Assembly (NCBI RefSeq): GCF_020055635.1 | Contig: NZ_JAIPUT010000001.1 | Span: 62,001 to 126,000, forward strand | Direction of reading: 5' to 3' | DNA length: 64,000 bases | Source of the DNA: Marivita sp. | Lineage (GTDB): Bacteria; Pseudomonadota; Alphaproteobacteria; Rhodobacterales; Rhodobacteraceae | Part shown: positions 2,699 through 64,000 of the stretch, piece by piece | Numbering within the stretch: position 1 is the stretch's first letter | Layout of the letters: each line of letters opens with the position of its first letter | Position numbers and translations under genes: made by a program | Notes under the pieces: generated by a model | What the model was told of the DNA's origin: nothing | Seen by the model: only the letters and a program-made list of their open reading frames with translations | Database searches by the model: none

Positions 2699-3364
2699 AT
2701 GGCCAAACTCTATCATGTTCCGTTGTCGCCGTTCTGCCGCAAGGTACGACTGAGCCTTGCGGAAAAGAAGATCGAGTGCGAACTGGTGGAAGAGCGGTAC
2801 TGGGAGAAAGACCCGGATTTCCTGCGCCGAAACCCCGCGGCCAAGGTGCCGGTTCTCAAGATCGACGGGCGCACGATGGCCGAAAGCGCCGCGATCTGCG
2901 AATATCTCGAAGAGAAATATCCCGAACCGCCGCTGATGCCGCGGTCGTCGGAAGCGCGCTACGAGGTGCGCCGACTGGTCGGGTGGTTCGACGACAAGTT
3001 TCACAACGAGGTGACGTCGAAACTCCTGTACGAGCGGGTGAACAAGAAGGTCACCAAGCAGGGGTTCCCGGACAGCGGCAACGTCAAGTCCGGGGCGAAG
3101 GCGATCAAGTACCATCTTGATTACATGGCGTGGCTGCTGGATCATCGGCGCTGGCTGGCCGGCGATACGATGACGCTCGCCGATTTCGCGGCAGCGGCGC
3201 ATCTGTCGTCGCTCGACTATATCCGGGATGTGGACTGGAACCGCAGCGAGGCGGTCAAGGACTGGTACGCCAAGATCAAGTCGCGTCCGGCTTTCCGGTC
3301 CATTCTCGCCGACCAGGTGCCGGGCTTTCCGCAGCCGCCGCATTATGCCGATCTGGATTTCTGA
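2699..3364 (+). CDS. Glutathione S-transferase family protein
   Basis: A 221-residue protein with the two-domain glutathione transferase layout. The N-terminal thioredoxin-like half begins MAKLYHVPLSPFCRKVRL and includes the glutathione-contacting segments KVPVLKIDG and MAESAAICEYL (residues about 50-70). The helical C-terminal half ends with the usual LAGDTMTLADFAAAAHLSSLDY segment. A serine and a cysteine (SPFC) sit where catalytic Ser or Cys residues occur in bacterial classes. The substrate cannot be told. It stands alone, with a strong GC-rich hairpin between it and queG. Confidence 0.9.
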   Translation: MAKLYHVPLSPFCRKVRLSLAEKKIECELVEERYWEKDPDFLRRNPAAKVPVLKIDGRTMAESAAICEYLEEKYPEPPLMPRSSEARYEVRRLVGWFDDKFHNEVTSKLLYERVNKKVTKQGFPDSGNVKSGAKAIKYHLDYMAWLLDHRRWLAGDTMTLADFAAAAHLSSLDYIRDVDWNRSEAVKDWYAKIKSRPAFRSILADQVPGFPQPPHYADLDF

Positions 3365-3400
3365 GGCGGCCCGGGTTCTTCGTCCCGACACTCCGGCATT

Positions 3401-3451
3401 GGGGGGCCAGCCCCCCAAACCCCCCGGCATATTTGGAAAGAGAAGAAGAGG
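3401..3451 (+). repeat. GC hairpin plus CCCCCGGCATATTTGG tail, a probable Rhodobacteraceae intergenic repeat
   Basis: The element opens with a perfect hairpin, GGGGGG-CCAG-CCCCCC (3401-3416). A C-run and CGGCATATTTGGAAAGAG then lead into a purine-rich stretch that serves as the queG ribosome binding site. From memory, near-identical hairpin-plus-ATATTT elements are scattered between genes in many Rhodobacteraceae. A shorter look-alike of the tail (CCCGGGATATTTCGAAACC) occurs near 20058. It may end transcription of the GST gene or protect mRNA 3' ends. Confidence 0.6.
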
Positions 3452-3460
3452 GAGCCCGCG

Positions 3461-4519
3461 ATGGATCTGACGGCCCGGGTGAAGGCGCAGGCCGTGGCGG
3501 AGGGGTTTTCGGCCTGTCGCATCTGTCGGCCGCAAGACGTGCCCGAGGTGCCCGCGCGGCTGCAAGCGTTTCTTGATGCCGGATATCACGGCCAGATGGG
3601 CTGGCTCGCGGATCGGGCGCACTGGCGCGGCGCGCCGCAGGTGCTCTGGCCCGAAGCGCGGTCTGTGATCATGCTGGCCGAGAACTATGGCCCCGCGCAT
3701 GATCCGCTGGACGTGCTGGACCGGCCCGAACAGGCTGCGATTTCGGTCTACGCGCAGAACCGCGACTATCATGACGTGGTCAAGAAGCGGCTCAAGCGGC
3801 TGGCGCGCTGGGTGATCGCCGAGGCGGGGGGCGAAGTGAAAGTCTTTGTCGATACCGCGCCCGTGCCGGAAAAGCCGCTTGGACAGGCGGCGGGGCTGGG
3901 ATGGCAGGGCAAGCACACCAACCTTCTGTCGCGCGATCTCGGGTCGTGGTTCTTTCTCGGGTCGGTGTTCACCACGCTGGACCTGACACCGGATGCGCCG
4001 GAGGTAGACCATTGCGGGTCGTGCCGCGCCTGTCTGGACGTCTGTCCCACGGATGCTTTTCCCGCGCCGTACCGGCTGGATGCGCGGCGCTGCATTTCCT
4101 ATCTGACGATCGAGCATCACGGGCCGGTCGATGAAGAGCTGCGCGCGATGATGGGCAACCGGATTTACGGCTGCGACGATTGTCTTGCGGTCTGTCCCTG
4201 GAACAAGTTCGCCAAGCGCGCCTCGGAAGTGAAGTACCATGCCCGCGACGATTTGATGGCGCCGGATCTGGCGGAGCTGGCGGGTCTAGACGATGCCGGG
4301 TTCCGGGCGCGGTTCTCGGGCTCGCCGATCAAGCGGATCGGGCGCAACCGGTTCGTGCGCAACGTGCTTTATGCGATCGGCAATTCCGGATCGGCGCGGT
4401 TGCGACCTGTGGCGCAGGAATTGGTGGACGATCCGGACGCAACCGTCGCGGATGCCGCCCGCTGGGCCGTGATGCGACTTGCCGATGTCGCAAACACGCG
4501 GGCCGCGTCCGGCGACTAG
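3461..4519 (+). CDS. queG: Epoxyqueuosine reductase
   Basis: Catalyses the last step of queuosine synthesis, reducing epoxyqueuosine in tRNA to queuosine with a cobalamin cofactor and two 4Fe-4S clusters. The 352-residue protein shows the ferredoxin-like cluster motif [12 protein letters not shown] at residues about 185-196. A second set of ligands is in [13 protein letters not shown] and [12 protein letters not shown] at about 207-249. [27 protein letters not shown] is the conserved substrate and cofactor region. The C-terminal part resembles a HEAT-like repeat. The ribosome binding site AGAGGGAG lies 6-13 bases ahead of the ATG. Other queuosine genes are not in the window. Confidence 0.96.
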
Positions 4520-18533: not shown

Positions 18534-19352
18534 TCAGGGGGTGCAACCCTGGATATCCACCGCCCGCGAGGCGCCGATAATTGTAAAGCGCAGGTCTGAC
18601 CGGTCGACAGCAAAGCTGCGGCCCTCCACATGCACCAGGCGGGTGGACGCATGCAGCGTGCCGCCGTCGCGCCGGCTGTCCGGTTCTGCCACCCAAAGGT
18701 GCGGATTGCCCGCTTCGACCACCACATGTTCGGTGCCGCCCGTCGCCGGCATGTCGATGGCGCTGTGCAGGATCAGCCCGCCCTTGGCACTGACTTCGAA
18801 GCGGCAGGTGACACTGCGGACCCCCGCATCGCCTGCGGTGTAGGGCATGTCGGCCAGGGCCGCCGCGATCACCGGATCGGGACGCGCCGATGCCGGCGGC
18901 AGGGTCGCGGTGAAGGACAGGTTGGCCGGGATGCAGATATCCTTGCACAGGCCGATCTGCATTTCACCGGACAGCTGGATGTCCGCCGCGTCGTCACGCG
19001 CCGTCAGGTGCAGCGGGATCACCACGCTTCGGGTATATCCGACAGACCGCGCCCCCTGTTCGAAGAACACTTCTGGTGAAGGCCAGTTCGCCGAAACCGC
19101 CCCGATGTTGCGCGATCCGGTCCAGTCGAACTGTGGCGGGATGCCGACATCTCCCGGCGCGCGCCAATAGGTCTTCCAGCCCGGTTCGAGCACGATCTGA
19201 ACGGCCGCCATGTGAGACCCGTCGGCCAACCGCCATCCGGGCAACAGCGCAGCCCGCTCGAGACCGGTGGTTTCGCCCGCCTGCGACGCAAGCGGAGTGA
19301 ACAGGGACATCGCCAGGGTACAGGCGGTCAGAAATGGCTTGAACTGTGTCAT
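18534..19352 (-). CDS. Exported DsbD-alpha-like protein (DsbD N-terminal domain only)
   Basis: A 272-residue exported protein. MTQFKPFLTACTLAMSLFTPLASQAGE is a signal peptide. The mature part is the immunoglobulin-like domain of the DsbD/ScsB N-terminus: LEPGWKTYWRAPGDVGIPPQFDWTGSRN is typical, and QIGLCKDICIPANLSF holds the redox-active Cys pair. The membrane (beta) and thioredoxin (gamma) domains of DsbD are missing, so electrons must come from a separate partner. The start was set at ATG 19352; a 44-residue upstream extension lacks a signal and overlaps the region before the YqgE gene. It is divergent from that gene. Confidence 0.88.
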   Translation of the reverse strand: MTQFKPFLTACTLAMSLFTPLASQAGETTGLERAALLPGWRLADGSHMAAVQIVLEPGWKTYWRAPGDVGIPPQFDWTGSRNIGAVSANWPSPEVFFEQGARSVGYTRSVVIPLHLTARDDAADIQLSGEMQIGLCKDICIPANLSFTATLPPASARPDPVIAAALADMPYTAGDAGVRSVTCRFEVSAKGGLILHSAIDMPATGGTEHVVVEAGNPHLWVAEPDSRRDGGTLHASTRLVHVEGRSFAVDRSDLRFTIIGASRAVDIQGCTP

Positions 19353-19485
19353 CCCCAAGCAGATGGCCGGTTTCCGGCGCGATGAAAAGTCACAAACAGG
19401 CGATCCGACCCGGGCCTGCGGCCTGTGTGCTCTTGCAACCCCTTGCCGCGCTGTCCATGTTTGGACGGTGAGCACATATGACATA

Positions 19486-20043
19486 ATGACCGACCTGACG
19501 GGCCAATTGCTGATCGCGATGCCTGGAATGCCCGACCCCCGGTTCGAGCACAGCCTGATCTATATCTGCGCCCATTCCGATGACGGGGCGATGGGTCTGA
19601 TCGTGAACAAGCCCTCGGCGGACGTGACCTTCGAAAACCTGATCGACCAGTTGCCGATCGAGGAGGCGGGCAACGTGTCCGGCATCCGGGTGCATTTCGG
19701 CGGCCCGGTCGAACTGGGCCGGGGCTTTGTCCTGCATTCGCCGGATTTCAGCTCCGAGATGACGACGTTGAACGTCGATGACGGCTTCGCCATGACGGCG
19801 ACGCTGGATGTGCTGGAAAGCATCGCGCAAGGCGGCGGTCCCGAAAAGCGCCTGATCGTTCTGGGATATGCCGGCTGGGGGCCGGGTCAGCTCGAGAGCG
19901 AGCTTGCGGCAAACGGCTGGCTGACCTGCGACGCGAGCAGCGACCTGGTGTTCGACATCGCCGATGGCGACAAGTGGGAAGCCGCGCTGGCAACACTGGG
20001 TGTGTCGCCGCTGGCGCTTTCCTCGGAAGGCGGACGCGCCTGA
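19486..20043 (+). CDS. YqgE/AlgH family protein
   Basis: A 185-residue protein of the UPF0301 (YqgE/AlgH) family. Conserved stretches are LTGQLLIAMPGMPDPRFEHSLIYICAHSDDGAMGLIVNKP at the start and FGGPVELGRGFVLHS near residue 66. The family fold is known, but its biochemical function is unclear; it has been described as a putative transcriptional regulator. The start at 19486 gives the family's N-terminus; an in-frame ATG at 19267 would overlap the divergent DsbD-like gene. It ends 42 bases before the convergent MBL hydrolase. Confidence 0.95.
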   Translation: MTDLTGQLLIAMPGMPDPRFEHSLIYICAHSDDGAMGLIVNKPSADVTFENLIDQLPIEEAGNVSGIRVHFGGPVELGRGFVLHSPDFSSEMTTLNVDDGFAMTATLDVLESIAQGGGPEKRLIVLGYAGWGPGQLESELAANGWLTCDASSDLVFDIADGDKWEAALATLGVSPLALSSEGGRA

Positions 20044-53974: not shown

Positions 53975-54664
53975 TCAGCAGCCGGTGCCCTTGGTGACCA
54001 CGCTCACGGTTTTCCAGATCACCGAAACGTCCTGGGCGAAAGTCACCTTGGACAGGTATTCGGCATCGTAATGCGCGCGTTCGGCAAAGCTGCTCTCGTG
54101 GCGGACGGATACCTGCCAGAAGCCGGTCAATCCCGGACGCAGGGCGTAATAGGCAGAGCCGGGGTAGAGCGTCTGCTGATCGACCATCATCGGGCGCGGA
54201 CCGACCAGCGACATGTCGCCCTTGAGAACGTTCCACAATTGCGGAAGTTCATCCAGCGATGTCTTGCGCAGGATCTGGCCGACTGTCGTGATGCGCGGAT
54301 CATGGCGAAGCTTCTGGTTGCGATCCCATTCGGCGCGTGCCGCTGGGTTCCGGGCCAGGTGATCTTCAAGCGCCTGGTCGGCATTTGGGACCATGCTGCG
54401 CAGCTTCCACAGCTTGAAGGGCTTGCCGAACCGGCCAATGCGGGTCTGGTGGTAGAATGGCGATCCGCCGTCCAGAGCCACGAGCAATGCGCAGACGCCA
54501 AGAACCAGCATCACCGGAGCCGCCGCCATCAGCACAAGCAGGATATCGACGCCGCGCTTGAGGTGATCGCGGTAGAGGCTTTTCGGTCCGGATGTCGTGA
54601 AGGCCGCATTGACGAGCGATTCAATGTCGGTGCCAGGCAGAGGTTGGCGAATATGCAGTGTCAT
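53975..54664 (-). CDS. ExoY/WcaJ-type undecaprenyl-phosphate sugar phosphotransferase
   Basis: A 229-residue initiating transferase that moves a sugar-1-phosphate onto undecaprenyl phosphate to start an exopolysaccharide. One membrane helix near the N-terminus (VDILLVLMAAAPVMLVLGVCALLVAL) is followed by family motifs FYHQTRIGRFGKPFKLWKLRSM, SLDELPQLWNVLKGDMSLVGPRPMM and LRPGLTGFWQVSVR. There are no other polysaccharide genes beside it, but two glycan clusters lie elsewhere in the window. It has an unusually long upstream gap (908 bases to rnd). Confidence 0.95.
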   Translation of the reverse strand: MTLHIRQPLPGTDIESLVNAAFTTSGPKSLYRDHLKRGVDILLVLMAAAPVMLVLGVCALLVALDGGSPFYHQTRIGRFGKPFKLWKLRSMVPNADQALEDHLARNPAARAEWDRNQKLRHDPRITTVGQILRKTSLDELPQLWNVLKGDMSLVGPRPMMVDQQTLYPGSAYYALRPGLTGFWQVSVRHESSFAERAHYDAEYLSKVTFAQDVSVIWKTVSVVTKGTGC

Positions 54665-59336: not shown

Positions 59337-59358
59337 ACCCCGCTCAGGCGGGGTTTTT
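59337..59358 (+). terminator. Terminator after ptsN, overlapping the end of the convergent sulfotransferase gene
   Basis: ACCCCGC pairs with GCGGGGT around a TCAG loop and is followed by T5. The TCA in the loop (59344-59346) is the complement of the stop codon of the convergent sulfotransferase gene, so the last codons of that gene form the stem. An economical junction. Confidence 0.85.
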
Positions 59359-60777
59359 CGTGCAGAAATCCGAGAACCCGAACATCATGTAATCGCGGGG
59401 ATATGCCTCGCGGCAAAGTCTTTCCAACTGCGCATCATGGATTTGCGCAAGCCGGTCCGTCTGGCTGCGGTCGCCTTGCGGCACGGGGCCGGCATCGATG
59501 CCCATCGTCTGCGCCAGTCTGGGCAGCGCATCGGCCAGCTCTTCCTCGCGGTAGAGGTGATCCGGAAGACAGAATTCCGCCATCCCCTGCAGACAGGTCA
59601 CCTGACTGGCCCAATGCGCATCGACGCGAAGACTGGTCTGGCCGTTCAGGTTCGACTTGAGAAAGCGCAGGAACCCTTCGAAGGCGGCCCTGTGGGCCTT
59701 GAGACCGTAACCCGGATCGGTCGGATCATCGGGAAGCTCGAGGCCGTGAAACTGGCCAAGCTGCTGACGTATTCTGCTGAAACTGCCTGGGCCGGTGTCG
59801 AGGATCTTGTCGCAGAACGCGGCATGGGCGCGCGCCAGAGGATGCCGCAGGACGGTGAAGCGCTGATGCCCCGGATTCTCCTGCATCCAGGCGCGCAGGG
59901 TCTTCTGGTTGAACTTGCCCAACAGATCGGACGCCGCGCCATCCAGCGCTGCCATCCACCGGATGACCCGATCCTCGGGGCCGGACCGGATCGGCATATA
60001 AAGCACCGGATGCGCCGGGCAAGCGACGTAGGAGGGCACCACCGGTCCGCGCCGCGGCTCGAAATTCGGAATGCGCGTCAGGTCGAACCGGTCCAGCCCG
60101 CGCAGCGCGACCTGCATCTGGTCGAAATTGGCCACCTTCTCGGACAAGGGCTGCGGGTTCTGCGGCTTCAGGTTGGACTTCAGGCTGTCGGGATCGACCG
60201 ACACACCCAGCCAGTTTGCCAGACCGCTCAGAATTTCGGTGTCGTGCAGATCGTCATAGCCGATATGGAACGCCGTTTGCCCCGTCACCTGCAACGCACG
60301 CATGATGTCCAGCTGGAAGTTCTGCATGCCGGCGACGTGGCGTTCGAATTCGTGAAGATCGAAATGCGCCTGTGCTGCCTTGCGGGTCGTGACGTTGGTC
60401 AGCTTCCACTGGTCCGTCGCCTTCGCGATCTTCAGGCTGATATAACTGTCCAGCGGATTGCGCGTCAGGATGATCTTGGCACAGCGGGCATCGGACAGGA
60501 TGGCCGGCAGGACGCGTGGGTCATGGTCGTGAAAATACCGGAACCCGCCAAGCCCGTCCCGCGTCCGGATGGCCCGCAACAGCCTGTCGGGATTGTCCTC
60601 GCGCTGGCGATGCGTGATCCCCAAGAGGTCCTTGCGGTTCGGGTAGCCGATGAAGTTCTGGTTGAAGGCTTCGCCATGGCAGGTGACGCCGTCGATCCGG
60701 TTCAGGTAATCCTCAAGCAGGTTCGACCCGGTTCGCATTTCCGCGAAGAGAACGAATGTATCGAAACGGGACGTCAC
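59344..60777 (-). CDS. Double-domain sulfotransferase (Stf0/NodH-like plus a second, degenerate domain)
   Basis: A 477-residue protein with two sulfotransferase-like halves. The first has a PAPS loop VLFAEMRTGSNLLEDYLN (residues 9-26) and a 3'-phosphate motif KIILTRNPLDSYISLKIAKATDQWKL (near 101-126). The second half, from about residue 240, repeats the layout with VLYMPIRSGPEDRVIRWM and FTVLRHPLARAHAAFCDKIL, but its phosphosulfate loop lacks the usual Lys/Arg-x-x-x-S/T pattern and is probably inactive. It lies five bases after the GT14-like gene and ends the glycan operon. The substrate is inferred to be the glycan made by its neighbours. Confidence 0.88.
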   Translation of the reverse strand: MTSRFDTFVLFAEMRTGSNLLEDYLNRIDGVTCHGEAFNQNFIGYPNRKDLLGITHRQREDNPDRLLRAIRTRDGLGGFRYFHDHDPRVLPAILSDARCAKIILTRNPLDSYISLKIAKATDQWKLTNVTTRKAAQAHFDLHEFERHVAGMQNFQLDIMRALQVTGQTAFHIGYDDLHDTEILSGLANWLGVSVDPDSLKSNLKPQNPQPLSEKVANFDQMQVALRGLDRFDLTRIPNFEPRRGPVVPSYVACPAHPVLYMPIRSGPEDRVIRWMAALDGAASDLLGKFNQKTLRAWMQENPGHQRFTVLRHPLARAHAAFCDKILDTGPGSFSRIRQQLGQFHGLELPDDPTDPGYGLKAHRAAFEGFLRFLKSNLNGQTSLRVDAHWASQVTCLQGMAEFCLPDHLYREEELADALPRLAQTMGIDAGPVPQGDRSQTDRLAQIHDAQLERLCREAYPRDYMMFGFSDFCTKNPA

Positions 60778-60782
60778 GGACT

Positions 60783-62486
60783 TTATTTCACCAGGTAGGG
60801 GCGCGGGCGCGGTTTGTCGCGTGGGGCGTCCTGCGCAATCGGATCGGCGGGAAAATCGCCCATGAGATAGGGATGCATTCCCTGGTTCTTGAGGTTCTGG
60901 AGAAACTGTCCGAACCCGGTCAGATCCACCATCACCGGGGCCGAGGTCAACCGCCGGTTCGGTTGGAACCCGATCTCGTCAACGATGACCTGGATCGACT
61001 CCATCGGGCTTTCGATGAACTCGGCCATGGTCCAGATGCGCCGTCGGCACTTCGAGAACGGGGATCGCAGGGCATCGAGCATCTCGGTTTCGATTTTCTG
61101 CAACTTGGCGGCTTCGCTGCGCAGTTCGGCGAAGGATCGGTTCGACTGGAACAGCGGAATCGCCCAGGCACCGCTGATCACGGAAACCTGTGCGTTGGGG
61201 TCCTTGGCAATGTCCCAGATCACATGCCGCGTGCTGTGCGGCCCCATCTGGAAACACTGACGTTCCCCGCGGGTATTCCACAGCAGGTTGGTCAGGAACA
61301 TCTTGGGATCGTAGTCCCGCAAGGTTGCGTTGTCCGACAGCGCGCCGTTCATCACGGTCTGCCCGTCGGCGAAATGCGCCCTGTCCGGTGCGAAAAGATG
61401 CCCATGCACGCGCGCGCCCGTCACCTGGGCCAGCCAGGGTTCGAAATCTGTGAACAGCTCGGTAAAGCCCTGGAACACCGAATACTTGGCGGCCGTGACG
61501 CCGTTTTCCCAATCCTCGTTCGGAAACCGGCTTTGCATGTAAAGGCCCGGGCGGCCGCGCGTACGCCGATCTACTGCCTTGGCGAAGATGCGGTCGATCT
61601 TGCCCGGATTTGGCTCCTGCAAGCTCAGTTCTCCTGGCTTCGGGCTCAGGAACGTCTGGTAAAGCCGCTCCGCATTGGGCCAGATCTTGCGCGCCACGAA
61701 ACAGTCGGACCGGCGCAGCAATTGCAGGTGATCGTCGTAGAAGATGTGCGGCTTGCCCTGAAAATCGAACTTCGACAGGGTCAGCGATCGGCTGACGATA
61801 TTGGTCGAATAGAGCCTCGCCAATGTCTGGAAATAGCTTTCATCCGGAATCCACACATGCCGGAAATAGCGGTCATGGGTCTTGCGACTGGGATCTTCGA
61901 GGATTGACGCCAGGGTTTGCCGGGTCAGGCACCACCACTGGCTGCCCATATGCGGCGTCAGCCCGTCGGGAATCTTGCGCCTGTAGCCGACCTTGCGCTG
62001 CAATTCGACGAAGCGGTCGAACAGGTACCGGTTGCGCCGCCACGAGAACGGGAACCGCATGGTGAACCGTTCTTCGTCGAGGCCACCCACCGTCCATGGG
62101 ACATCCGCTGTGGTCGCGCTTTCGATGTGGTCGGTGCGCGGTCGCGCCTTGAGGTAGTCGATCAGTTCCTGAACCGGACGCAGCGGAAGGCACGCGCCCG
62201 AGGTCAGGTAGACATGGCTGACCTCCTCGAACTCGGCCAGCATCAGTTCGCCGGCGTCCTGGCTGGCCGCGACCAGGCCCCAGGTGCCCCAGTCGCAGCG
62301 ATGCCTGCGGGAAAAGCGGATCATCGGATCGTCGCTCAGCCGTTCGGTAAAGATTTTGTAGCGCCGCTGCGACACGATCTGATCGACATGGATCACCACC
62401 GGGCAGCCTGCCTTGGTCCAGTGCCGCGCCACCTCTTCGGCGCGGTGCAGCGCCGTATGCGCCAGCATGATGATCCCGATGCTCAT
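60783..62486 (-). CDS. GT14-like glycosyltransferase with a 270-residue C-terminal extension
   Basis: A 567-residue protein. The N-terminal 300 residues are core-2/I-branching-like: IGIIMLAHTALHRAEEVARHW, RHRCDWGTWGLVAASQDAGELM, SHVYLTSGACLPLRPVQELIDYLKAR, MGSQWWCLTRQTLASIL and HVWIPDESYFQTLARLYS. They align with the gene at 41608. The C-terminal part (from about 320) differs and is not recognised. The start at 62486 overlaps the upstream glycosyltransferase stop by four bases (ATGA). The longer frame to 62564 lies inside that gene. Confidence 0.87.
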   Translation of the reverse strand: MSIGIIMLAHTALHRAEEVARHWTKAGCPVVIHVDQIVSQRRYKIFTERLSDDPMIRFSRRHRCDWGTWGLVAASQDAGELMLAEFEEVSHVYLTSGACLPLRPVQELIDYLKARPRTDHIESATTADVPWTVGGLDEERFTMRFPFSWRRNRYLFDRFVELQRKVGYRRKIPDGLTPHMGSQWWCLTRQTLASILEDPSRKTHDRYFRHVWIPDESYFQTLARLYSTNIVSRSLTLSKFDFQGKPHIFYDDHLQLLRRSDCFVARKIWPNAERLYQTFLSPKPGELSLQEPNPGKIDRIFAKAVDRRTRGRPGLYMQSRFPNEDWENGVTAAKYSVFQGFTELFTDFEPWLAQVTGARVHGHLFAPDRAHFADGQTVMNGALSDNATLRDYDPKMFLTNLLWNTRGERQCFQMGPHSTRHVIWDIAKDPNAQVSVISGAWAIPLFQSNRSFAELRSEAAKLQKIETEMLDALRSPFSKCRRRIWTMAEFIESPMESIQVIVDEIGFQPNRRLTSAPVMVDLTGFGQFLQNLKNQGMHPYLMGDFPADPIAQDAPRDKPRPRPYLVK

Positions 62487-63511
62487 GCCCAATTGCCCAT
62501 CGACATGAGCCCCAGGATCTCGAGTTGCCGCCAGTTGATGTATTTCTCCGACCACTTGCACCACAGTTCGGGATTGTCCTGAAGCGCGTTGGCATAGGCC
62601 ACGTATTCAAGGCTCCCGGCGTAATGCTCGCGGCGCTTGAGCTCTTCCATCGCCTTGGCACTGAAGGTGCTGATGAACTTGGTATGCAACAGCGCGCCCG
62701 ACGCCTTTTCGCCACCCCATTCATCGTAGACGTAATTCAGGCCGCGCGGCAAAAGCATGTGTGTCGAGCTGGCATAGGCATAGCGGTTGTGCCATTTCAC
62801 CAGCGGGATCTTGTTCAACGCAGGTGCTGCCTCGGGGCGGTCGGCAAAGAACACACGCGCACGCGCGCCGCCCTGAATCCAGAGATTGCCCAGAAGGTGA
62901 TTGCGCTTGAGCGTGTAATTCCCGGAATCGAACCACGACGCGATCTCGAGCGGGTTCTGCCCGGGCTGATAAGGCATCGCGTCGATGCGGCCCTTGGGAT
63001 ACATGTCCAGCAGCATCGCGCTGAAGGATCGGATCGACGATGCGTCCAGCCAGTCCGTCAGCGCGGGCAAAGGCCGCGAGTCGCAGAACGGATAAACGAA
63101 GAATTCGTCCGGATCGACGGTCAGGCACCAATGGTCGTGGCCATATTTGCGCAGCAGCCAATTCATCCAGTCCATTCCGAAACGGGCGCGCTTGTAGCTT
63201 TTCCGGCTGTGCCAGACCGACACATCCGGCTGTTCGGCCAAAAGCTCGGCGGTGCCGTCGGTGCTGTCATTGTCGACAAACAGGAAATGGGACACGCCCA
63301 TGTCGCGGTAATACTTGAGGAAATAGGGCAGGCGCACGCCTTCGTTCCGCAATGTGCAAAAGAGAAGAATGTCGGATTTCCGGATTTGGTCAGTACGATT
63401 TGTCACAGGTTTCAGTTCGCGCCGCTTTCGAAGCGCGCGTATCCTCCAGCGTTTCCGCTGAAGCCTGAGGCCATATCGTTGCACAACTCCCAAGAGTCCG
63501 CTGCCTGTCAA
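62483..63511 (-). CDS. Glycosyltransferase family 2-type protein (GT92/Glyco_tranf_2_4-like)
   Basis: A 342-residue glycosyltransferase of the GT-A fold. DILLFCTLRNEGVRLPYFLKYYRDMGVSHFLFVDNDSTDGTAELLAEQ (residues about 47-95) is the nucleotide-binding half. The metal-binding DxD-type sequence is LTVDPDEFFVYPF, near 129. The substrate is unknown. The start is uncertain: the frame begins with TTG at 63511, there is no internal Met before residue 70, and a GTG lies at residue 10. No good ribosome binding site was seen. The N-terminus is very basic (RLQRKRWRIRALRKRRE). It is second in the glycan operon. Confidence 0.87.
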   Translation of the reverse strand: MTGSGLLGVVQRYGLRLQRKRWRIRALRKRRELKPVTNRTDQIRKSDILLFCTLRNEGVRLPYFLKYYRDMGVSHFLFVDNDSTDGTAELLAEQPDVSVWHSRKSYKRARFGMDWMNWLLRKYGHDHWCLTVDPDEFFVYPFCDSRPLPALTDWLDASSIRSFSAMLLDMYPKGRIDAMPYQPGQNPLEIASWFDSGNYTLKRNHLLGNLWIQGGARARVFFADRPEAAPALNKIPLVKWHNRYAYASSTHMLLPRGLNYVYDEWGGEKASGALLHTKFISTFSAKAMEELKRREHYAGSLEYVAYANALQDNPELWCKWSEKYINWRQLEILGLMSMGNWA

Positions 63512-63536
63512 TTAGGTCGCAATACACGTCTGGGTA

Positions 63537-64000
63537 TCAAAGGAGCGTAAACAGCTGGTTGAAATGCGCCTGCCATGTCGGGGCCTGAAAGCCCGTTTCA
63601 GAATACTGCTCACCGCCTTGATCCCGACGTCTTTGCGCCAGTTGCTTGATTTTGTTGGCCCAAGCGTAGCGATCTGATTCGGCTGCGTAAATAGGGTATG
63701 CGTCAAGCACCTCCTTGAAGATGGGCAAAGAGTTGCAGATGAGCGGCACATTCAGCGCGGCCGCCTCGATTGCGGGATAGCCAAAGCCCTCGGCGCGGCT
63801 TGGAAACATCAGCCCGTTGCTTTGCTCAAGCAGCCCCCACATTCGGGGATCGGGCAGGTCGGCCAGTTCATGCACATTTGCAGGGCCCTGGTCGAGCGCG
63901 GCGAAAACCGCCTCGTTCATCCAGCCGCGCCGCCCGCACAGGATCAGGTGTGGATCGTCGGGGCCGGCAAAGCCCGTCCACAGATCAAGCAGAAAGCCGA
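63537..64000 (-). CDS. Glycosyltransferase family 1/4, C-terminal part (5' end outside window)
   Basis: The last 154 residues of a GT-B-fold glycosyltransferase that runs off the right edge; the frame is open from base 64000 (reading GFLLDLWTGFAGPDDPHLILCGRRGW before the first internal Met). The nucleotide-sugar-binding motif with the E-x7-E pattern is PSRAEGFGYPAIEAAALNVPLICNSLPIFKEVL. It lies 25 bases ahead of the GT2-type gene and is the first visible gene of the glycan operon. The donor sugar cannot be told. Confidence 0.92.
   Translation of the reverse strand, partial: GFLLDLWTGFAGPDDPHLILCGRRGWMNEAVFAALDQGPANVHELADLPDPRMWGLLEQSNGLMFPSRAEGFGYPAIEAAALNVPLICNSLPIFKEVLDAYPIYAAESDRYAWANKIKQLAQRRRDQGGEQYSETGFQAPTWQAHFNQLFTLL

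Follow-up and report, generated by a model that had tools for sequence, protein, structure and literature searches.

What is made by the four genes on the minus strand at the right end of the DNA analysed here? This stretch, referred to below as the window, comprises 64,000 nucleotides of Marivita sp. (Rhodobacteraceae; bases 62001-126000 of a 247 kb contig, NZ_JAIPUT010000001.1), and the sequence to the right of its edge was readable as well. The genes encode three glycosyltransferases (GTs) and a sulfotransferase. Gene content, synteny, co-occurrence, motifs and probable folds were computed. On balance, we consider that the genes belong to a conserved locus of the Rhodobacteraceae which builds a sulfated surface glycan; this is most probably a capsule that leaves the cell through an ATP-binding cassette (ABC) transporter. 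A sulfated glycan as the predicted product is well supported; the choice of a capsule rather than lipopolysaccharide (LPS) is one that we infer.

Gene order and conservation of the cluster

The four open reading frames are located on the minus strand at 59344-60777 (sulfotransferase), 60783-62486 (GT14-type enzyme with a C-terminal extension), 62483-63511 (GT2-type enzyme) and from 63537 to beyond the edge of the window (GT4). They are separated by 5, -4 (with the start at 62486) and 25 bases, as given in the initial annotation. The gene at 60783-62486 begins with ATG, and an alternative in-frame GTG is present at 62564. The enzyme classes named earlier (GT1/4, GT2-type and GT14-like) were recovered with the Pfam domains Glycos_transf_1, Glyco_tranf_2_4 (PF13704, E 7.7e-37; abbreviated GT2_4 below) and Branch, respectively. 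The expectation that the cluster continues past the edge was also borne out. The complete GT4 gene (L003:6538-7755), of which only the 3' part (63537-64000, minus strand) lies in the window, extends to the window-equivalent position 64754, and upstream of it (L003:7736-12734) galE, galU, a further GT2 gene and cysQ were found, together with a divergent permease gene. The order of transcription is cysQ, GT2, galU, galE, GT4, GT2_4, GT14 (Branch plus DUF5927) and sulfotransferase. Curated models were matched above their cut-offs by cysQ (TIGR01331), galU (TIGR01099) and galE (TIGR01179), and an adenosine 5'-phosphosulfate kinase is encoded in the same genome. The neighbouring genes were not those of an unrelated pathway. 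A glycan cluster with a sulfotransferase of the type dependent on 3'-phosphoadenosine 5'-phosphosulfate (PAPS), as predicted earlier, is indicated by the invariant PAPS residues described below, the clustered CysQ-type phosphatase for 3'-phosphoadenosine 5'-phosphate (PAP), the genomic kinase and the permease.

A profile search for DUF5927, the extension of the GT14 protein, was performed over genomes of the family, genomes of the whole class and 14 control genomes. The domain was detected in 121 of the 149 Rhodobacteraceae genomes (sampled genera), among them 111 of the 132 of good quality, with a single match per positive genome except for G118. It was detected in none of the 14 controls, and in 5 of 385 genomes class-wide, all five of which were Rhodobacteraceae. 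The cluster is a near-core locus of this one family. The earlier remark that GT14-like enzymes are rare in bacteria does not hold within the Rhodobacteraceae. The closest relatives of the GT14 protein with named records were mostly from Marivita (91-94% identity).

In the 30 best loci the GT2_4, GT14 and sulfotransferase genes occurred in the same order without exception (30/30). Adjacency was counted in two larger sets, 40 wider loci including diverged copies and the 80 best loci with named records, with those loci as denominators that had enough flanking sequence. A GT2_4 gene was located upstream of the GT14 gene in 40/40 and 76/76 loci, respectively, and the sulfotransferase gene directly downstream of it in 33/39 and 76/78. 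For a convergent ptsN within 2.2 kb the counts were 35/39 and 67/76; cysQ was kept in 35/37 and 68/69, as was the permease divergent from it (35/37 and 68/69). Among the loci scored as lacking the adjacent sulfotransferase, L055, L059, L064 and L065 still carry a match to it, in contrast to L061 and L062. The typical arrangement is dnaK-alkB-permease / cysQ-(GT2)-galU-(galE)-GT4 or second GT2_4-GT2_4-GT14-sulfotransferase / ptsN-hpf-lptB. Many genera have a second GT2_4 paralogue in place of GT4 (L037:4459, L047:11934, L050:12412 and others), so that this position has been exchanged while the last three genes were kept. Chance open reading frames were rejected because this gene order recurs across many genera. 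A horizontally acquired island was rejected as well, since the cluster is syntenic family-wide and its G+C content (0.59-0.61) is barely below that of most of the window.

Co-occurrence of DUF5927 and the sulfotransferase (E <= 1e-20) was evaluated over the 149 genomes by a Fisher test. Both were present in 119 genomes and neither in 26; G057 and G074 had only DUF5927, and G133 and G148 only the sulfotransferase, in both cases as partial matches. These tables were tallied by eye, with some genomes lacking a match assigned by elimination, and the sulfotransferase matches in G069 (3.6e-4) and G074 (2e-8, off-cluster) were scored as absent. G148 retains the permease, cysQ, GT2, galU and galE. In this genome a 9.6 kb stretch (L174:7300-16800) replaces GT4, GT2_4, GT14 and the N-terminal domain of the sulfotransferase, of which a C-terminal remnant is left; by eye, genes resembling those of insertion sequences were recognised in it, besides others that include ones for an RTX-like and a GT2-like protein.

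The sulfotransferase and the GT14-DUF5927 protein

The sulfotransferase gene (59344-60777, minus strand) is the last gene of the cluster and convergent with ptsN. Its product had been described as a double sulfotransferase. In the window copy, the only Pfam match is Sulfotransfer_2 on residues 303-469, and the N-terminal half is without one; single relatives gave matches to Sulfotransfer_2 (11/17), Sulfotransfer_3 (7/17) and Sulfotransfer_1 (5/17). The family profile of the N-terminal half matched a solved structure named 'LPS sulfotransferase NodH' (9vki, E 6.3e-15, residues 7-155). A structure model of the protein was obtained with a mean predicted local distance difference test score (pLDDT) of 82.8 and a predicted template modelling score (pTM) of 0.53. 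For its first 240 residues, alignment to Stf0 and to heparan 3-O-sulfotransferases gave Z 11.9 (Stf0: Z 11.9, root mean square deviation (rmsd) 3.9, 193 residues aligned), and all 50 structures listed were sulfotransferases.

Within the N-terminal domain (residues 1-243; 60049-60777, minus strand), the alignment placed two segments, residues 13-20 (EMRTGSNL; 60718-60741) and 106-114 (RNPLDSYIS; 60436-60462), which we take to be the putative 5'-phosphosulfate-binding loop and the putative 3'-phosphate-binding segment. Residues R15, G17, S18, N19, R106 and S114 were invariant in 112/112 sequences, a count from which sequences below 85% query coverage (below 95-97% for L080-L159) were left out and from which identical rows alone were removed, so that near-duplicates of one genome possibly remain. 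Of the structure alignments, A3 comprised 78 of 81 available rows and A4 67 rows, namely the window's sequence and those 66 out of 80 loci with sufficient coverage. Both the R-x-G-S/T of the 5' loop and the Arg and Ser of the 3' segment are therefore contained in this domain.

The C-terminal domain (residues 244-477; 59347-60048, minus strand) retains an R-H-P-x-x-R stretch, with Arg 311 in 102/112 sequences. The Ser expected at residue 319 was present in only 9/112 and the 5' loop was variable, so the canonical PAPS motif is missing despite the Sulfotransfer_2 match. The description as a double enzyme stands for two domains, on the evidence of the Pfam and 9vki matches, and falls for two catalytic units. 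A PAPS site is present in the protein once: the N-terminal domain is a putative PAPS-dependent sulfotransferase, and the C-terminal domain appears degenerate. The RTG of the N-terminal domain fits the RXG form of the 5' loop given for NodH in a review (PMC11625862). The protein resembles NodH/Stf0-type enzymes in this domain, but differs from them in its fusion to a second, degenerate domain and in its position within a glycan cluster conserved throughout a family.

The preceding gene (60783-62486, minus strand) encodes a fusion of Branch (PF02485) and DUF5927 (PF19349). The Branch domain (residues 1-261; 61704-62486) was recognised with E 1.3e-16 and 61.3 bits against a cut-off of 23.4, and was also found in 17/17 relatives. 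By profile comparison it was closer to xylosyltransferase 1 (E 4e-10, residues 3-224) than to a core-2 type N-acetylglucosamine (GlcNAc) transferase (0.037). D215 and E216 of a Pro-Asp-Glu motif (residues 214-216; 61839-61847) were kept in 125/125 sequences; this is the likely position of the catalytic base, a role that we assume by analogy with GT14 enzymes. The Branch domain together with the conserved acid E216 suggests that the GT14 domain is an active enzyme. The domain, and D-E where the base is expected, are common to it and to xylosyltransferase 1 and core-2 GlcNAc-transferase; unlike these it is bacterial and carries DUF5927, and the match is confined to residues 3-224.

The C-terminal extension, initially described as unrecognised, is a full-length member of the named Pfam domain DUF5927 (residues 262-567; 60786-61703, minus strand; E 6.4e-156, 300/300 positions). 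A structure prediction, as the initial annotation had proposed, was obtained with pLDDT 72.7 and pTM 0.68; averaged over ten residues, pLDDT was 74-91 between residues 71 and 270. In the VIA-align comparison, rows 1-13 were all sulfotransferases, including Teg12 and Teg14, which we presume to belong to this class. The best match was 4gox (Z 9.7, rmsd 4.4 Å, 206 aligned) and the first kinase appeared at Z 7.1; Z >= 8 was reached in two rows only, and values below 8 may reflect merely a shared arrangement. Foldseek alone gave no match at E <= 0.001 and listed guanylate kinases beside sulfotransferases. The fold was therefore proposed from VIA-align and profile comparison.

A profile of diverse DUF5927 sequences matched the neighbouring sulfotransferase over 151 columns (E 8.3e-5). 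With other inputs E was 1.8e-4 (profile of the whole GT14 protein) and 3.5e-4 (larger alignments), and with shallow alignments of close relatives the comparison was not significant (0.047). Among 28 forward pairs of eight cluster profiles, the best was that of the two sulfotransferase halves with each other (1.9e-4), the second that of DUF5927 with the N-terminal half (3.5e-4), and the next 0.0083. For DUF5927 and the N-terminal domain, no comparison of a forward with a reversed profile was better than 0.093; pairs with both profiles reversed (0.0013, 0.00046) duplicate the forward pairs and do not represent a control. DUF5927 did not match the profile of the C-terminal sulfotransferase domain (E 0.12), and a search against sequences of solved structures yielded nothing useful, with a designed helix bundle as the best match (E 0.055). 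DUF5927 appears, with moderate confidence, to be a diverged domain of sulfotransferase fold, which would tie an entry without function in Pfam to this fold; the word DUF5927 occurred in no open-licence paper searched. The position aligned to R106 is Gly in 123/125 sequences and the RTGS loop is absent, and the canonical PAPS residues are thus missing. Therefore, PAPS binding of the usual kind is not expected for this domain.

Proposed export and alternative products

Substrates, reactions, the sulfate on the product and the partnership with Kps proteins are what we infer from these data. UDP-glucose and UDP-galactose would be supplied by GalU and GalE, and the glycan would be assembled in the cytoplasm by the GT2, GT4, GT2_4 and GT14 enzymes. 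Sulfate would be transferred from PAPS by the N-terminal domain of the sulfotransferase, and the by-product PAP removed by CysQ. Export may proceed via the divergent KpsM/VexB-like permease with KpsT-, KpsE- and KpsD-like proteins encoded elsewhere, on a lipid linker that may be made by KpsC/KpsS-like proteins, likewise encoded outside the cluster. In this view, the C-terminal sulfotransferase domain and DUF5927 would be worn sulfotransferase folds whose role is probably to bind substrate or to keep the enzymes in contact. A more specific proposal was also considered, in which DUF5927, as a repurposed sulfotransferase domain on a xylosyltransferase-like GT14, and the inactive C-terminal domain would hold or read the nascent glycan and couple sugar addition and sulfation in one cytosolic complex, the product being a sulfated capsule that nearly all Rhodobacteraceae would have retained as an ancestral coat. 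In this full form we regard it as unlikely.

Extension to the right, proposed initially as a search for export genes, yielded the membrane protein divergent from cysQ. In the library it had one match, VexB, the permease of the Vi capsule, with a score below the cut-off (E 6.8e-6), and the VexB model run over the whole genome matched this permease alone (E 2e-5). On contig C55, KpsC-, KpsD- and KpsS-like genes were found together, with Capsule_synth above the Pfam cut-off and the KpsS model at 3.7e-51, below its own cut-off; the KpsC/KpsS linker enzymes characteristic of group 2/3 capsules are thus represented. On contig C150, VexC/KpsT- and KpsE-like genes were found together, and by eye no adjoining permease was recognised. 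The VexB-like permease and the VexC-like ATPase are encoded on different contigs, and neither reaches its curated cut-off. Capsule_synth (KpsC/S family) was present in 121/121 DUF5927-positive and in 17/28 negative genomes (12 of these 17 at E < 1e-20), and the permease (E <= 1e-30) in 119/121 positive against 5/28 negative genomes; these counts, too, were tallied by eye and entered into Fisher tests. In 58 of 100 loci, kdsB, encoding the cytidine monophosphate (CMP)-Kdo synthetase (Kdo, 3-deoxy-D-manno-oct-2-ulosonic acid), is located directly behind cysQ and before GT2; examples are L040:2247-3047, L044:2958-3758 and L052 near 3118-3918.

An ABC-exported capsule is favoured over LPS by the tracking of KpsC/S and of the permease with the cluster, by the sole VexB match and by kdsB in relatives. 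Synthesis of a sulfated LPS core or O-chain, as in the LPS sulfation of rhizobia, with the permease serving another purpose, would nevertheless agree with several observations: lptB, lptA and lptC lie convergent next to the cluster, galU, galE and kdsB (58/100 loci) are equally compatible with LPS, and the closest solved relative of the N-terminal domain bears the name of an LPS sulfotransferase. We consider this rather unlikely, since the only library match of the permease is a capsule permease, the ATPase encoded on C150 is closer to VexC than to Wzt (E 1.3e-30 vs 2.6e-22), KpsC/S presence tracks the cluster and the lpt genes run on the opposite strand.

Both enzymes to which the N-terminal domain is related, NodH and Stf0, act on small glycolipids, and no polymerase was recognised among the library matches of the cluster proteins. 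A short sulfated glycolipid, or the decoration of proteins or another small acceptor, with no polysaccharide formed, would be in line with both points; the conservation together of four glycosyltransferases and a polysaccharide-type permease makes such a product quite improbable. That the glycan is unsulfated and every sulfotransferase-fold domain non-catalytic is very improbable, as all tested PAPS residues of the N-terminal domain are kept (112/112) and cysQ is retained in the cluster (35/37 and 68/69 loci), even though the canonical residues are missing in two of the three such domains and L061, L062, L139 and L145 have an intact GT14 gene with no sulfotransferase gene next to it.

Several findings weigh against a sulfated capsule as the product. 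The Kps-like genes are unlinked to the cluster and all below curated NCBIfam cut-offs, the similarity of the permease to VexB is weak, and lptB, lptA and lptC adjoin the cluster. The loss of the sulfotransferase gene in the four loci just named indicates that sulfation may disappear without loss of the remaining genes, and many loci are without galE. A kdsB gene follows cysQ in little more than half of the loci, and a search of the window's genome revealed no CMP-Kdo synthetase, either in the cluster or elsewhere: CTP_transf_3 gave one weak match (E 2.9e-5), and KdsB of a relative gave nothing better than E 0.94. The step of the Kdo linker is thereby weakened, for capsule and LPS equally. In addition, the co-occurrence statistics ignore phylogeny, and the assembly has a contamination of 4.91%. 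Compared with ABC-dependent capsule systems (KpsMTED-KpsCS, Vi antigen), a sulfated capsule made by this locus would share a weakly VexB-like permease and KpsT-, E-, C-, D- and S-like genes; it would differ in that the export genes are distributed over three contigs and below curated cut-offs, with no CMP-Kdo synthetase found.

Relation to reported systems and neighbouring genes

In open-licence literature on sulfotransferases or sulfated polysaccharides of Rhodobacterales/Rhodobacteraceae and on NodH structures, Kps genes and capsule receptors, no report of the locus was present among the matches listed. According to their titles, papers on Vibrio sp. KMM 8419 (PMC11641403) and Cobetia marina (PMC11766843) describe sulfated capsular polysaccharides of single marine strains together with sulfotransferase genes; these are other bacteria. 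A 2024 review counts six bacterial genera reported as makers of sulfated polysaccharides (PMC11625862). For Rhodobacter capsulatus, attachment of the head spikes of the gene transfer agent to the capsule of the recipient is described in a preprint (PMC13420450). The individual parts of the locus are of known kinds; new, as far as seen, are the fixed family-wide locus, the connection between GT14 and genes for sulfation, and a fold proposal for DUF5927, a Pfam domain without known function. If the proposed product is correct, well over 100 genera of a single family, one that is common in the sea, would be able to make sulfated polysaccharides from one fixed chromosomal site, which would bear on who produces such polysaccharides in seawater.

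To the right of the permease, alkB was identified by library match and dnaK and dnaJ were named by eye. Convergent on the left side are ptsN (library match) and hpf, lptB, lptA and lptC (named by eye); membership of the cluster in the lpt group was rejected because it is on the opposite strand. Near the lpt genes, a short sugar-phosphate transferase similar to WbaP/PglC is encoded at 53975-54664 of the window (Bac_transf, E 7.8e-58). This gene recurs there in Marivita and several other loci and may serve another polysaccharide. Between permease and alkB, a position at which they are absent in the window's genome, other loci encode small, secreted-looking proteins with an SH3-like start of the form YDVxxVAxDDVLxIR, which may belong to this surface system as well (L041:18325-18921 and 18921-19541; L042:18582-19211; L047:16804-17445; L060:1501-2124).

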